A stretch of 64,000 nt of DNA, from positions 20,511,879-20,575,878 of the forward strand of contig OZ038434.1 in NCBI GenBank assembly GCA_964036275.1. The letters run 5' to 3'. Below are positions 14,328 through 55,385 of this stretch, one piece after another; within the stretch, counting starts at the first letter, position 1; every line of letters begins with the position of its first letter. The notes below the pieces were generated by a model. The model was not told the origin of the DNA and ran no database searches. It was given only the letters and a program-made list of their open reading frames with translations. Both the position numbers and the translations under genes were made by a program. The stretch is from Litoditis marina. Taxonomy: Eukaryota > Nematoda > Chromadorea > Rhabditida > Rhabditidae.

Positions 14328-14347
14328 TATAAGCTTATTTGTATAAG
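14328..14347. other. Tail-to-tail polarity switch with small fold-back palindrome
   Basis: Minus satellite ends at 14327. TATAAG follows (14328-14333), then CTTATTTGTATAAG (14334-14347), which is an exact piece of plus-oriented monomer and matches the variant in the next plus copy near 14699. The switch creates the perfect 10-bp palindrome ATAAGCTTAT at 14329-14338. A switch of strand at a short inverted repeat is typical of fold-back or template-switch inversion. Plus satellite then stops and resumes at 14551, so the non-satellite insert proper is 14348-14550. Confidence 0.8.
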
Positions 14348-14550
14348 CAATGAAGTAAAAGCAATGTCCATTTTTCTCAACTCATCGTTAGAAGACGGTC
14401 AGTAAGTCTTTTCGTCCTGTTTTCATTTTCTCAGAGGGGTTCAACTGATGATGACCCAACCCTCTGAGAAAAACAACCCAAAAATCGTCTTGAATCAGGG
14501 TCGAAACGATTTTTGAGTACATCTTTTACTGAGCACATTCATATAACAAT
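14348..14550 (+). mobile_element. Non-satellite island of about 203 bp, structured, unknown origin
   Basis: This stretch has no similarity to the monomer and sits inside a plus monomer: CTTATTTGTATAAG precedes it and AGTCCCG follows, with seven satellite bases (TTGAAAC) missing at the site. CAAT occurs at both ends (14348-14351, 14547-14550). An outer stem pairs AGTAAAAG (14354-14361) with CTTTTACT (14523-14530) and ATGT (14364-14367) with ACAT (14519-14522). Inside lie a small hairpin (AGAAGAC 14390-14396 with GTCTTTT 14406-14412, one G-T pair) and the two large hairpins described separately. It has no reading frame, poly-A signal or tRNA boxes. The structure suggests an RNA-based element, for example a hammerhead-bearing retrozyme or the terminal repeat of a Penelope-like element. 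That is inference, and only one copy is visible here. Confidence 0.6.
14426..14514 (+). ncRNA. Candidate hammerhead-ribozyme core made of two kissing hairpins
   Basis: Hairpin 1 is a perfect 13-bp stem (14426-14438 with 14460-14472). Its loop carries CTGATGA at 14445-14451. Hairpin 2 is a perfect 9-bp stem (14480-14488 with 14506-14514). Its loop starts with C14489 and ends with GAA 14503-14505. The loops pair with each other twice: GTTCAA 14439-14444 with TTGAAT 14490-14495 (five Watson-Crick pairs and one G-U), and GACCC 14453-14457 with GGGTC 14498-14502. In hammerhead numbering this gives C3-A9, G12-A14, the A15.1-U16.1 pair and C17, with a GUC triplet and predicted cleavage after 14489. 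Helices I and III are flush with the core; helix II has one extra U (14452). Known hammerheads run stem III, cleavage site, stem I, CUGAUGA, stem II, GAAA, stem III, up to circular permutation. Here the stem I and II strands are exchanged, making a pseudoknot. Activity is unproven. Confidence 0.6.
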
Positions 14551-17500
14551 AGTCCCGAAATAATTGAGTGGCGGTGCTAACCAAAAACACCCCCAAGTTG
14601 ACGTGAATGGAGTTGCGATTTTCGCCCTACGTGAGATTTAGTATTCAAACTTGGTATTTTTGAACTCCTCTCATGTGTAGAAACTTAAAAATGTTCATCT
14701 TATTTGTATAAGTTGAAACAGTCCCGAAATAATTGAGTGGCCGTGCTAACCAAAAACACCCCCAAGTTGACGTGAATGGAGTTGCGATTTTCGCCCTACG
14801 TGGGATTTGGTGTTCAAACTTGGTATTTTTGAACTTCTCTCATGTGTAGAAACTCAAAAATGTTCATCTTATTAGCATAAGTTGAAACAGTCCCGAAATA
14901 ATTGAGTGGCGGTGCTAACCAAAAGCACCCCCAAGTTGACGTGAATGGAGTTGCGATTTTCGCCCTACGTGAGATTTAGTGTTCAAACTTGGTATTTTTG
15001 AACTCCTCTCATGTGTAGAAACTTAAAAATGTTCATCTTATTTGCATAAGTTGAAACAGTCCCGAAATAATTGAGTGGCGGTGCTAACCAAAAACACCCC
15101 CAAGTTGACGTGAATGGAGTTGCGATTTTCCCCCTACGTGGGATTTAGTGTTCAAACTTGGTATTTTTGAACTCCTCTCATGTGTAGAAACTTAAAAATG
15201 TTCATCTTATTAGCATAAGTTGAAACAGTCCCGAAATAATTGAGTGGCGGTGCTACCCAAAAACACCCCCAAGTTGACGTGAATGGAGTTGCGATTTTCG
15301 CCCTACGTGGGATTTAGTGTTCAAACTTGGTATTTTTGAACTCCTCTCATGTGGAGAAACTCAAAAATGTTCATCTTATTTGCATAAGTTGAAACAGTCC
15401 CGAAATAATTGAGTGGCGGTGCTAACCAAAAACACCCCCAAATTGACGTGAATGGAGTTGCGATTTTTGCCCTACGTGAGATTTAGTGTTCAAACTTGGT
15501 ATTTTTGAACTCCCCTCATGTGTAGATACTCAAAAATGTTCATCTTACTAGCATAAGTTGAAACAGTCCCGAAATAATTGAGTGGCGGTGCTAACCAAAA
15601 ACACCCCCAAGTTGACGTGAATGGAGTTGCGATTTTCGCCCTACGTGAGATTTAGTGTTCAAACTTGGTATTTTTGAACTCCTTTCATGTGTAGAAACTT
15701 CAAAATGTTCATCTTATTAGCATAAGTTGAAACAGTCCCGAAATAATTGAGTGGCGGTGCTAACCAAAAACACCCCCAAGTTGACGTGAATGGAGTTGCG
15801 ATTTTCGCCCTACGTGGGATTTAGTGTTCAAACTTGGTCTTTTGAACTCCTCTCATGTGTAGAAACTCAAAAATGTTCATCTTATTTGCATAAGTTGAAA
15901 CAGTCCCGAAATAATTGAGTGGCGGTGCTAACCAAAAACACTCCCAAATTGACGTGAATGGAGTTGCGATTTTTGCCCTACGTGAGATTTAGTGTTCAAA
16001 CTTGGTATTTTTGAACTCCTCTCATGTGTAGAAACTTAAAAATGTTCATCTTATTAGCATAAGTTGAAACAGTCGCGAAATAATTGAGTGGCGGTGCTAA
16101 CCAAAAACACCCCCAAGTTGACGTGAATGGAGTTGCGATTTTCGCCCTACGTGAGATTTAGTGTTCAAACTTGGTATTTTTGAACTCCTCTTATGTGTAG
16201 AAACTTAAAAATGTTCATCTTATTAGCATAAGTTGAAAACAGTCCCGAAATAATTGAGTGGCGGTGCTAACCAAGAACACCCCCAAGTAGACGTGAATGG
16301 AGTTGCGATTTTCGCCCTACGTGAGATTTAGTGTTCAAACTTGGTATTTTTGAACTCCTCTCATGTGTAGAAACTTAAAAATGTTCATCTTATTAGCATA
16401 AGTTGAAACAGTCCGAAATAATTGAGTGGCGGTGCTAACCAAAAACACCCCAAGTTGACGTGAATGGAGTTGCGATTTTCGCCCTACGTGAGATTTAGTG
16501 TTCAAACGTGGTATTTTTGAACTCCTTTCATGTGTAGAAACTTCAAAATGTTCATCTTATTAGCATAAGTTGAAACAGTCCCGAAATAATTGAGTGGCGG
16601 TGCTAACCAAAAACACCCCCAAGTTGACGTGAATGGAGTTGCGATTTTCGCCCTACGTGGGATTTAGTGTTCAAACTTGGTCTTTTGAACTCCTCTCATG
16701 TGTAGAAACTCAAAAATGTTCATCTTATTTGCATAAGTTGAAACAGTCCCGAATAATTGAGTGGCGGTGCTAACCAAAAACACTTCCAAATTGACGTGAA
16801 TGGAGTTGCGATTTTTGCCCTACGTGAGATTTAGTGTTCAAACTTGGTATTTTTGAACTCCTCTCATGTGTAGAAACTAAAAAATGTTCATCTTATTAGC
16901 ATAAGTTGAAACAGTCCCGAAATAATTGAGTGGCGGTGCTAACCAAAAACACCCCAAGTTGACGTGAATGGAGTTGTGATTTTCGCACTACGTGGGATTT
17001 AGTGTTCAAACTTGGTATTTTTGAACTCCTCTCATGTGTAGAAACTGAAAAATGTTCATCTTATTAGCATAAGTTGAAACAGTCCCGAAATAATTGAGTG
17101 GCGGTGCTAACCAAAAACACCCCCAAGTTGACGTGAATGGAGTTGCGATTTTCCCCCTACGTGGGATTTAGTGTTCAAACTTGGTATTTTTGAACTCCTC
17201 TCATGTGTAGAAACTTAAAAATGTTCATCTTATTAGCATAAGTTGAAATAGTCGCGAAATAATTGAGTGGCGGTGCTAACCAAAAACACCCCAAGTTGAC
17301 GTGAATGGAGTTGCGATTTTCGCCCTACGTGAGATTTAGTGTTCAAACTTGGTATTTTTGAACTCCTCTCATGTGTAGAAACTTAAAAATGTTCATCTTA
17401 TTAGCATAAGTTGAAACAGTCCCGAAATAATTGAGTGGCGGTGCTAACCAAGAACACCCCCAAGTTGACGTGAATGGAGTTGCGATTTTCGCCCTACGTG

Positions 17501-55000: not shown

Positions 55001-55194
55001 AGTGGCGGTGCTAACCAAAAACACCCCCAAATTGACGTGAATGGAGTTGCGATTTTCGCCCTACGTGAGATTTAGTATTCAAACTTGGTATTTTTGAACT
55101 CCTCTTATGTGTAGAAACTTAAAAATGTTCATCTTCGTTGCATAAGTTGAAACAGTCCCGAAATAATTGAGTGGCCGTGCTAACCGTGCTAACC
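52000..55194 (+). repeat. Satellite with 4-monomer HOR and expanded C-runs
   Basis: From about 53000 to 54360 a four-monomer unit is tandemly duplicated: GCTAACC before an expanded C-run starts at 53643 and 54322, 679 bp apart. The C-run, five in most copies, is 11 at 53654-53664 and 12 at 54333-54344, replacing the ACAC just upstream. Other variants here are CCGAATTAATTG (54475, 54815) and a 6-bp AAGTCC duplication at 54854. The block ends with GTGCTAACC present twice (55177-55185, 55186-55194), directly before the second island. Confidence 0.85.
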
Positions 55195-55384
55195 AGATTT
55201 TAAACGTAAATTATCTACTTTAGACTTGCAACCTGAATGTAACAGACAGCCTCTTGGAGGATAGCCGTTGTCTTCCTAGAAGACTCTTTTCCTCCAACTC
55301 CCAGCGCCCTTTTGACGCCAACAACACCTTCACACAACACACAGTGATACGGGAGAAAAATAAAGCTTGTATTGTATTGTATTG
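55195..55384 (+). mobile_element. Retroelement-like insertion (LINE or SINE 3' end), about 190 bp
   Basis: This non-satellite segment interrupts a monomer exactly at CTAACC. TAACC stands at both edges (55190-55194 and 55385-55389), which fits a 5-bp target-site duplication. The 3' part holds AATAAA at 55359-55364, then an ATTGT repeat (55371-55385), the usual layout of a non-LTR retrotransposon or SINE tail. Upstream, TTGGAGGA (55254-55261) pairs with TCCTCCAA (55290-55297) around an inner hairpin GTCTTC/GAAGAC (55270-55275, 55279-55284). The short size implies a 5'-truncated LINE or a SINE; no tRNA-type A or B box is seen. Short open frames crossing it on both strands run into satellite and are not genes. 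Family unknown. Confidence 0.7.
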
Positions 55385-55385
55385 T
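55359..55385 (+). promoter_or_regulatory. Polyadenylation signal followed by ATTGT tail
   Basis: AATAAA at 55359-55364 is followed after six bases by three ATTGT units. In non-LTR elements such a short repeated tail is the template end used for target-primed reverse transcription. It sets the element as plus-oriented, in the same direction as the flanking monomers. Confidence 0.65.

Follow-up and report, generated by a model that had tools for sequence, protein, structure and literature searches.

A predicted type-CSG hammerhead ribozyme in a 376-bp retrozyme-like element of Litoditis marina and in the 3' flanks of Penelope-like reverse-transcriptase genes

The window, a 64,000-nucleotide stretch of Litoditis marina contig OZ038434.1 (assembly of 262 Mb in 522 contigs), is almost entirely made of a 169-bp satellite. 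Inserted in a satellite array on the forward strand is a 205-bp sequence (14347..14551) that has satellite arrays on both sides and is 100% identical to the unit of a head-to-tail array found at another locus (L009, on contig 3). The insert is a partial copy of this 376-bp unit and covers unit positions 2-206. The unit is noncoding, has a GC content of 39-40%, and is found both dispersed and in head-to-tail arrays. At the insert junctions (window 14330-14360 and 14545-14560), the satellite is interrupted between CTTATTTGTATAAG and TCCCGAAATAATT and lacks about 9 bp, and the two arrays that flank the insert run in opposite orientation.

The element has many relatives in the genome, and we distinguish subfamilies A, B, and C among them. 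A pattern for the ribozyme core (CTGATGATGACCCAA, at most one mismatch) gave 929 genome matches versus 12 for the reversed pattern, a 3'-flank pattern outside the core gave 1651 versus 0 for its reversed control, and a subfamily C pattern gave 494 versus 0 for its control. These three patterns overlap in the copies that they find, and many of the inserts matched by the 3'-flank pattern are too short for the ribozyme. Additionally, the unit contains two other conserved structures. Unit positions 288-376 (L009 2807-2895) form a second conserved, well-paired domain with an outer stem (GCGTGTTT/GGAAACACG) and two inner hairpins, in which pairing is kept between subfamilies A and C while the loop letters differ. 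Just 5' of the ribozyme, at unit positions 45-67 (L009 2564-2586), there is a conserved AGAAGAC..GTCTTYT hairpin with a G-U to G-C change between the same two subfamilies.

Read base by base, window 14426-14515 contains all of the elements of a hammerhead core in the order CUGAUGA, cleavage site, GAAA. The CUGAUGA block (block C, 14445..14451) is identical across subfamily A, B, and C units. GUC is located at 14487..14489, and by analogy with the hammerhead core, cleavage is predicted between 14489 and 14490. GAAA (block G) is located at 14503..14506, where A14506 corresponds to A15.1. Stem I is formed by 14439..14444 (the 3' strand, on the block C side, also identical in the A, B, and C units) and 14490..14495 (the 5' strand, on the block S side); its G14439-T14495 pair is a G-U, and G14438-C14496 could form a seventh pair. 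Stem II pairs GACCC (14453..14457) with GGGUC (14498..14502). Stem III pairs 14479..14488 with 14506..14515 in 10 bp that start with the A15.1-U16.1 pair, U16.1 being 14488. All of these parts are on the forward strand. The core blocks and stems I and II agree with the positions named in an earlier, sequence-only reading of this DNA, which had also recognized stem III but had drawn it one pair too short (14480-14488 with 14506-14514).

The earlier reading left the stem of the first hairpin unused. This helix, which we call P1, is predicted by folding to pair 14426..14438 with 14460..14472. It is 13 bp long with a fold z-score of -4.73, and 0 of 500 shuffles gave a P1 as long. P1 directly adjoins stem I and is separated from stem II by two A's, and it therefore ties the distal ends of both stems. 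With P1 on one side and the linker CA (14496..14497) joining stem I to stem II on the other, the two stems sit between two junctions: a catalytic junction shared with stem III and a distal junction shared with P1. In the fold that we propose, two hairpins, P1 and stem III, would pair twice through their loops to give stems I and II, and P1 and the CA linker would clamp the distal ends of these stems in place of the loop-loop contacts of ordinary hammerheads. Minimum-energy folding yields the two hairpins without the pseudoknot, as the program does not handle such folds. An Rfam scan of the window at gathering thresholds gave no hammerhead match. A known Rfam RNA was also rejected as the identity of the element because L009, scanned at an E value of up to 10, gave only sub-threshold microRNA, DUF2800, and DUF805b matches and no hammerhead. 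A whole-genome search with RF00163 was uninformative: it gave 0 matches, with 73 of 41590 candidates scored and a control that was found in 0 of 14 genomes.

The canonical hammerhead types I, II, and III all have the cyclic order C-G-S, whereas the order at the window locus is C-S-G. The sequence-only reading considered a hammerhead with exchanged stem I and II connections to be undescribed; however, the same order has been published as type-CSG by Eckert, Friedrich, Weinberg, and Weinberg in 2023 (PMC10085705), the source of our block names, together with type-SGC (583 sequences) and one doubtful type-GCS. In the available text of that paper, type-CSG consists of two similar sequences, both of which cleave in vitro at the predicted site, with kobs values of 0.004 and 0.026 per min. 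The window locus has the features of this class: the block order, stems adjoining the core, the A15.1-U16.1 pair, an H at position 17, and, as P1, a helix joining the distal ends of stems I and II. As in the published sequences, the core residues are present, one strand runs from stem I into stem II, and the size is similar (the published constructs are 77-78 nt with flanks). Unlike the two similar sequences in that text, the window family comprises 929 core matches, about nine further groups exist, the genome is eukaryotic, the ribozymes are tied to retroelements, and several have an extra U after A9. The window ribozyme also resembles type-SGC, as described there, in its noncircular permutation, its short linker between stems I and II (typically three nucleotides in type-SGC), and its distal helix, but it differs in block order, and type-SGC was first found in metatranscriptomes near hairpin ribozymes. 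For permuted hammerheads, the same source argues that the linker and distal helix hold the ends of stems I and II (PMC10085705).

Next, we compared the subfamilies. Between subfamily A and C units, 60 of 60 columns in P1, loop 1, and loop 2 were identical, compared with 229 of 297 columns outside the motif. In the three-way comparison of A, B, and C, the values were 58 of 60 and 210 of 297, respectively (Fisher p 1.7e-6), and the two subfamily B differences are private to the copy used, as other B copies are without them. The ribozyme core is unchanged in the three subfamilies, and its surroundings diverge by up to a quarter. Because other parts of the unit are conserved too, conservation alone does not single out the ribozyme. 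Stem III carries a compensatory change, with T14485-A14509 replaced by C-G in subfamily B, and its A5/T5 run becomes A4/T4, one A-T pair shorter, in subfamilies B and C. In P1, the outer pair 14427/14471 changes from T-A in subfamily A to G-C in those C copies that have that part. In an alignment of 10 hand-picked copies of the window family, 92.7% of cells pair, and double-sided changes are confined to two stem III pairs, with none in stems I and II. In this alignment, two measures did not exceed those of shuffles: the count of double-change pairs, equaled or exceeded in 413 of 500 shuffles, and the count of further pair types, in 494 of 500. Since stems I and II are invariant between the subfamilies, the support for both within the window family comes from conservation only.

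A search of the genome for CTGANGAG, GTC, and CGAAAC in C-S-G order gave 59 matches versus 8 for the control. Visual inspection assigned 42 of the 59 to a single further family and two to the window family, and one resembles another locus, L165. We aligned 17 of 20 fetched regions of this second family, omitting one with a deletion in the ribozyme (L142), one copy on the same contig as locus L145 (L143), and one that belongs to the window family (L144). The second family folds as a complete type-CSG hammerhead, with P1, stem I (ACCTCA/TGGGGT), stem II (GCCTC/GAGGC), and stem III, and 89.1% of cells are paired compared with at most 55.8% for slid versions. There are 22 double-change cells, a number reached by 0 of 500 shuffles; six pairs of P1 and two of stem III account for all of them, leaving stems I and II without double changes. 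Among the five pair measures used, the double-change pair count (228 of 500 shuffles as high) and the further pair types (500 of 500) were not above shuffles. For six copies of this family, a same-strand reverse-transcriptase match lies 282-389 bp upstream, and the members of a seventh pair are 1172 bp apart. In L145, an open reverse-transcriptase frame of 600 codons (RVT_1 match, 5.4e-13) has its stop codon 279 bp upstream of the ribozyme, and this Penelope-like element is itself inserted in the window's 169-bp satellite (L145 133-3513 and 5774-5801, 97.5-98.1% identical).

Using the L145 frame, we searched the genome for further reverse transcriptases; 73 of 389 candidates were scored. Many of these 73 matches have open frames of 940-985 codons, and six same-strand pairs of matches are 4.3-8.3 kb apart. 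In the one relative examined for it (the open frame at C3:18723513), the N-terminal part matched GIY-YIG (6.2e-6). A reverse transcriptase and a GIY-YIG domain in one frame mark these partners as Penelope-like, a placement based on domain matches. Penelope-like elements with hammerhead motifs were reportedly described by Cervera and de la Pena in 2014. In the available account of such elements (PMC11167929), GIY-YIG likewise accompanies the reverse transcriptase and tandem copies likewise occur. Unlike the anole Penelope element covered there, which has a C-terminal endonuclease, the one frame that we examined has GIY-YIG upstream of the reverse transcriptase, and unlike the known Penelope-like hammerheads, the ribozymes linked to these reverse transcriptases have the order CSG.

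This order was seen in the 3' flanks of the reverse-transcriptase matches. We took the 650 bp 3' of 20 of the 73 matches, going down the ranking, so that the sample is neither random nor independent. A strict hammerhead was present in 15 of the 20 flanks, each in CSG order and on the strand of the gene. The five other hammerhead orders and the other strand gave none in the 20 flanks, and 20 shuffles of the set also gave none. By comparison, Rfam models at an E value of up to 1 found one sub-threshold hammerhead in the same flanks, a type III match over the L163 motif that scored 26 bits where the cut-off is 48.5, along with a snoRNA match that was also below threshold. The sense-strand search for CSG order was repeated with each stem in turn dropped from the descriptor. 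Dropping stem I gave 16 of 20 flanks, 15 of which have a stem I of at least 4 bp. Dropping stem II gave 17 flanks, with a stem II of at least 5 bp in 14, and dropping stem III gave 14, all with a stem III of at least 5 bp. No motif was found in the L146 flank, L148 has a bulged stem I, and in L153, L155, and L161, stem II has 0-3 bp in the register found. The sequence of stem II differs among families (GCCTC/GAGGC, GGCTC/GAGCC, GCCGT/ACGGC, and others). P1, which was not used for detection, was assessed in 20 loci, namely the 19 flanks in which the motif was placed and the window copy: in 13 of them, no more than 5 of 500 shuffles reached its length, and in L147, L153, L155, L158, L159, L161, and L162, it was not clearly longer than in shuffles. 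The extra U between core A9 and stem II in the window copy (14452), which the sequence-only reading regarded as a weak point, also occurs in 7 of 20 compared loci outside the window family (L147, L149-L152, L154, and L156). An extra nucleotide after A9 has a precedent in a viroid hammerhead.

At 80% identity, the 19 placed flanks and the window copy form ten groups. Across the ten groups, 48 of 50 positions are paired in stem I, 48 of 50 in stem II, and 50 of 50 in stem III. When strands were swapped between groups, a mean of 32-34 of 50 were paired, and 0 of 20000 swaps reached the observed value for any stem. Because most of the loci were found by requiring stems, these counts lean upward, and the leave-one-out detection is the fairer test. 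The stem covariation expected of a type-CSG hammerhead is found in stem III and P1 within families and in stems I and II between families. Under the earlier reading, homologous copies that failed to conserve the loop-loop helices would count against it; the comparison between families favors that reading, and within the window family, the helices do not vary. Its central proposal, a pseudoknotted hammerhead with exchanged stem I and II connections, is backed by conservation, covariation, and recurrence in ten sequence groups. The window ribozyme is well supported as a type-CSG hammerhead and, judged by its sequence, is probably active. The flank results are a sign that type-CSG is a usual ribozyme of Penelope-like elements in the genome examined.

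Metazoan retrozymes are head-to-tail noncoding repeats of 150-450 bp, with those of mussels being 350-390 bp (Cervera and de la Pena 2020, PMC7229834). The 376-bp unit is like them in being a short, noncoding, multicopy repeat with a structured RNA that is both tandem and dispersed; theirs number thousands of copies, with a GC content of <50%. In contrast, in the available text of that paper their RNAs have been seen and their hammerheads are of type I, with the order C, G, S, whereas the 376-bp unit, examined here as DNA, has a type-CSG hammerhead in place of type I. We consider it very probable that the window carries a type-CSG hammerhead in a 376-nt retrozyme-like element, whose transcripts would be cut to unit length and which would be mobilized by Penelope-like elements. 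In this model, head-to-tail transcripts would be cut to unit length and possibly circularized, and the nonautonomous 376-nt RNA would be reverse transcribed into new sites in trans by Penelope-like elements with their GIY-YIG endonuclease and reverse transcriptase. The 3' regions of these partners appear to carry type-CSG hammerheads of their own, of different sequence, and the likely role of the ribozyme is the processing of transcripts of both the Penelope-like elements and the 376-bp unit. Compared with the reverse-transcriptase elements that we fetched, the unit itself gave short, weak matches only, the best being 41 bases at 78%.

We looked at where inserted copies begin and end. Inserts longer than one unit and in register exist (e.g., 629 bases in L013). 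The 3' ends of inserted copies fall at unit 200-209 in 51 of 119 and at unit 255-269 in 34 of 119, the 5' ends are ragged, and head-to-head pairs are also seen. These counts omit 11 redundant loci and matches of <35 bases. Most of the 13 5' ends falling in bin 0 and of the 11 3' ends falling in bin 375 are artefacts of array tiling. According to the available text on Penelope-like elements with hammerheads, the Penelope-type enzyme starts internally and extends both target strands, and the hammerhead is between reading frames (PMC11167929). Our system appears similar in all three respects, and inserts of more than one unit, concentrated 3' ends, ragged 5' ends, and head-to-head pairs would fit Penelope-type copying of circular or multimeric RNA. 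A signature of the cut site in the insertion ends was looked for and rejected, as there is no peak at unit 145 (5 of 121 5' ends at 140-144 and 3 of 121 at 145-149). The absence of clustering around the predicted cut, with 8 of 121 5' ends in unit 140-149, speaks against our preferred explanation. For the anole element, however, the main substrate is given as unprocessed RNA, and reads neither started nor stopped at the presumed cut (PMC11167929, available text); the missing 5'-end cluster is therefore not decisive.

A broader reading, which we hold to be reasonably probable, is that one class of Penelope-like elements, with GIY-YIG at the N-terminus, and the short retrozyme-like elements riding on them have type-CSG as their standing self-cleaving ribozyme; the permuted fold, and not type I, would process their transcripts. 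This would extend perhaps to circle formation and probably to relatives of the host eukaryote.

We weighed three other explanations. The first is that the hammerhead forms in canonical order across two head-to-tail units, with block S of one unit meeting blocks C and G of the next. Head-to-tail arrays of the 376-bp unit do exist, on paper, combining S(n) with C(n+1) and G(n+1) gives a canonical, unknotted order, dimeric action has been reported for amphibian retrozymes (PMC7229834, available text), and the L163 motif has its sub-threshold match to the Rfam type III model. However, such an arrangement would sacrifice two structures that are kept by compensatory change, P1 and the local hairpin of the 10-bp stem III, and the reverse-transcriptase-linked ribozymes keep the CSG order even though same-strand neighbors are 4.3-8.3 kb apart. 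We judge it unlikely. The second explanation is an RNA that does not cleave, its hairpins either serving the reverse transcriptase or endonuclease as a recognition element or being the relic of a ribozyme. A conserved structure near the 3' ends used in integration and insertion 5' ends that ignore the cut site would both suit this, but hammerhead core letters are shared across differing contexts in which the identities of the stems are free to change, and a mere binding hairpin would need no joint CUGAnGA, GAAA, and A15.1-U16.1. We give it only a slim chance. As for chance, a lenient CSG descriptor (stems I, II, and III of at least 5, 4, and 5 bp) gave 2 matches in 470 Mb of simulated sequence, or about 2 expected per genome of this size, and a stricter one (5, 5, and 9 bp) gave 0 in the same 470 Mb; a scan for all six orders in 40 real loci with the family core masked gave 0 matches in 241,542 bases, both strands counted. 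Although repeats multiply any chance motif and the earlier reader sought many kinds of structure, these rates and the ten covarying sequence groups leave a chance resemblance within repeated sequence with a negligible probability. A single-unit type-CSG hammerhead that processes transcripts of the element is the reading that we prefer.

The topology at the window is not the first of its kind, and to our knowledge, its genomic and retroelement setting is the first known; the open-licence literature that we searched yielded no report of type-CSG in retroelements. A noncircular ribozyme permutation was a surprise in 2023, and in the available text, type-CSG then comprised two sequences with modest covariation and without a biological setting (PMC10085705). 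It now has a genomic home, several covarying families, and a plausible job in the processing of retroelement transcripts, which makes three questions directly testable: how a knotted ribozyme folds during transcription, how block order evolved, and what purpose hammerheads serve in Penelope-like elements.

Two other observations concern repeats in this assembly. In the window, an insertion of about 200 bp in the satellite (55186-55385) ends in AATAAAGCTTG followed by TATTG repeats, like the 3' end of a SINE or LINE. A run of five TTAGGG units had no match in the assembly, and short TTAGGC repeats form five interstitial clusters on contig 4, at 45.77-46.03 Mb.
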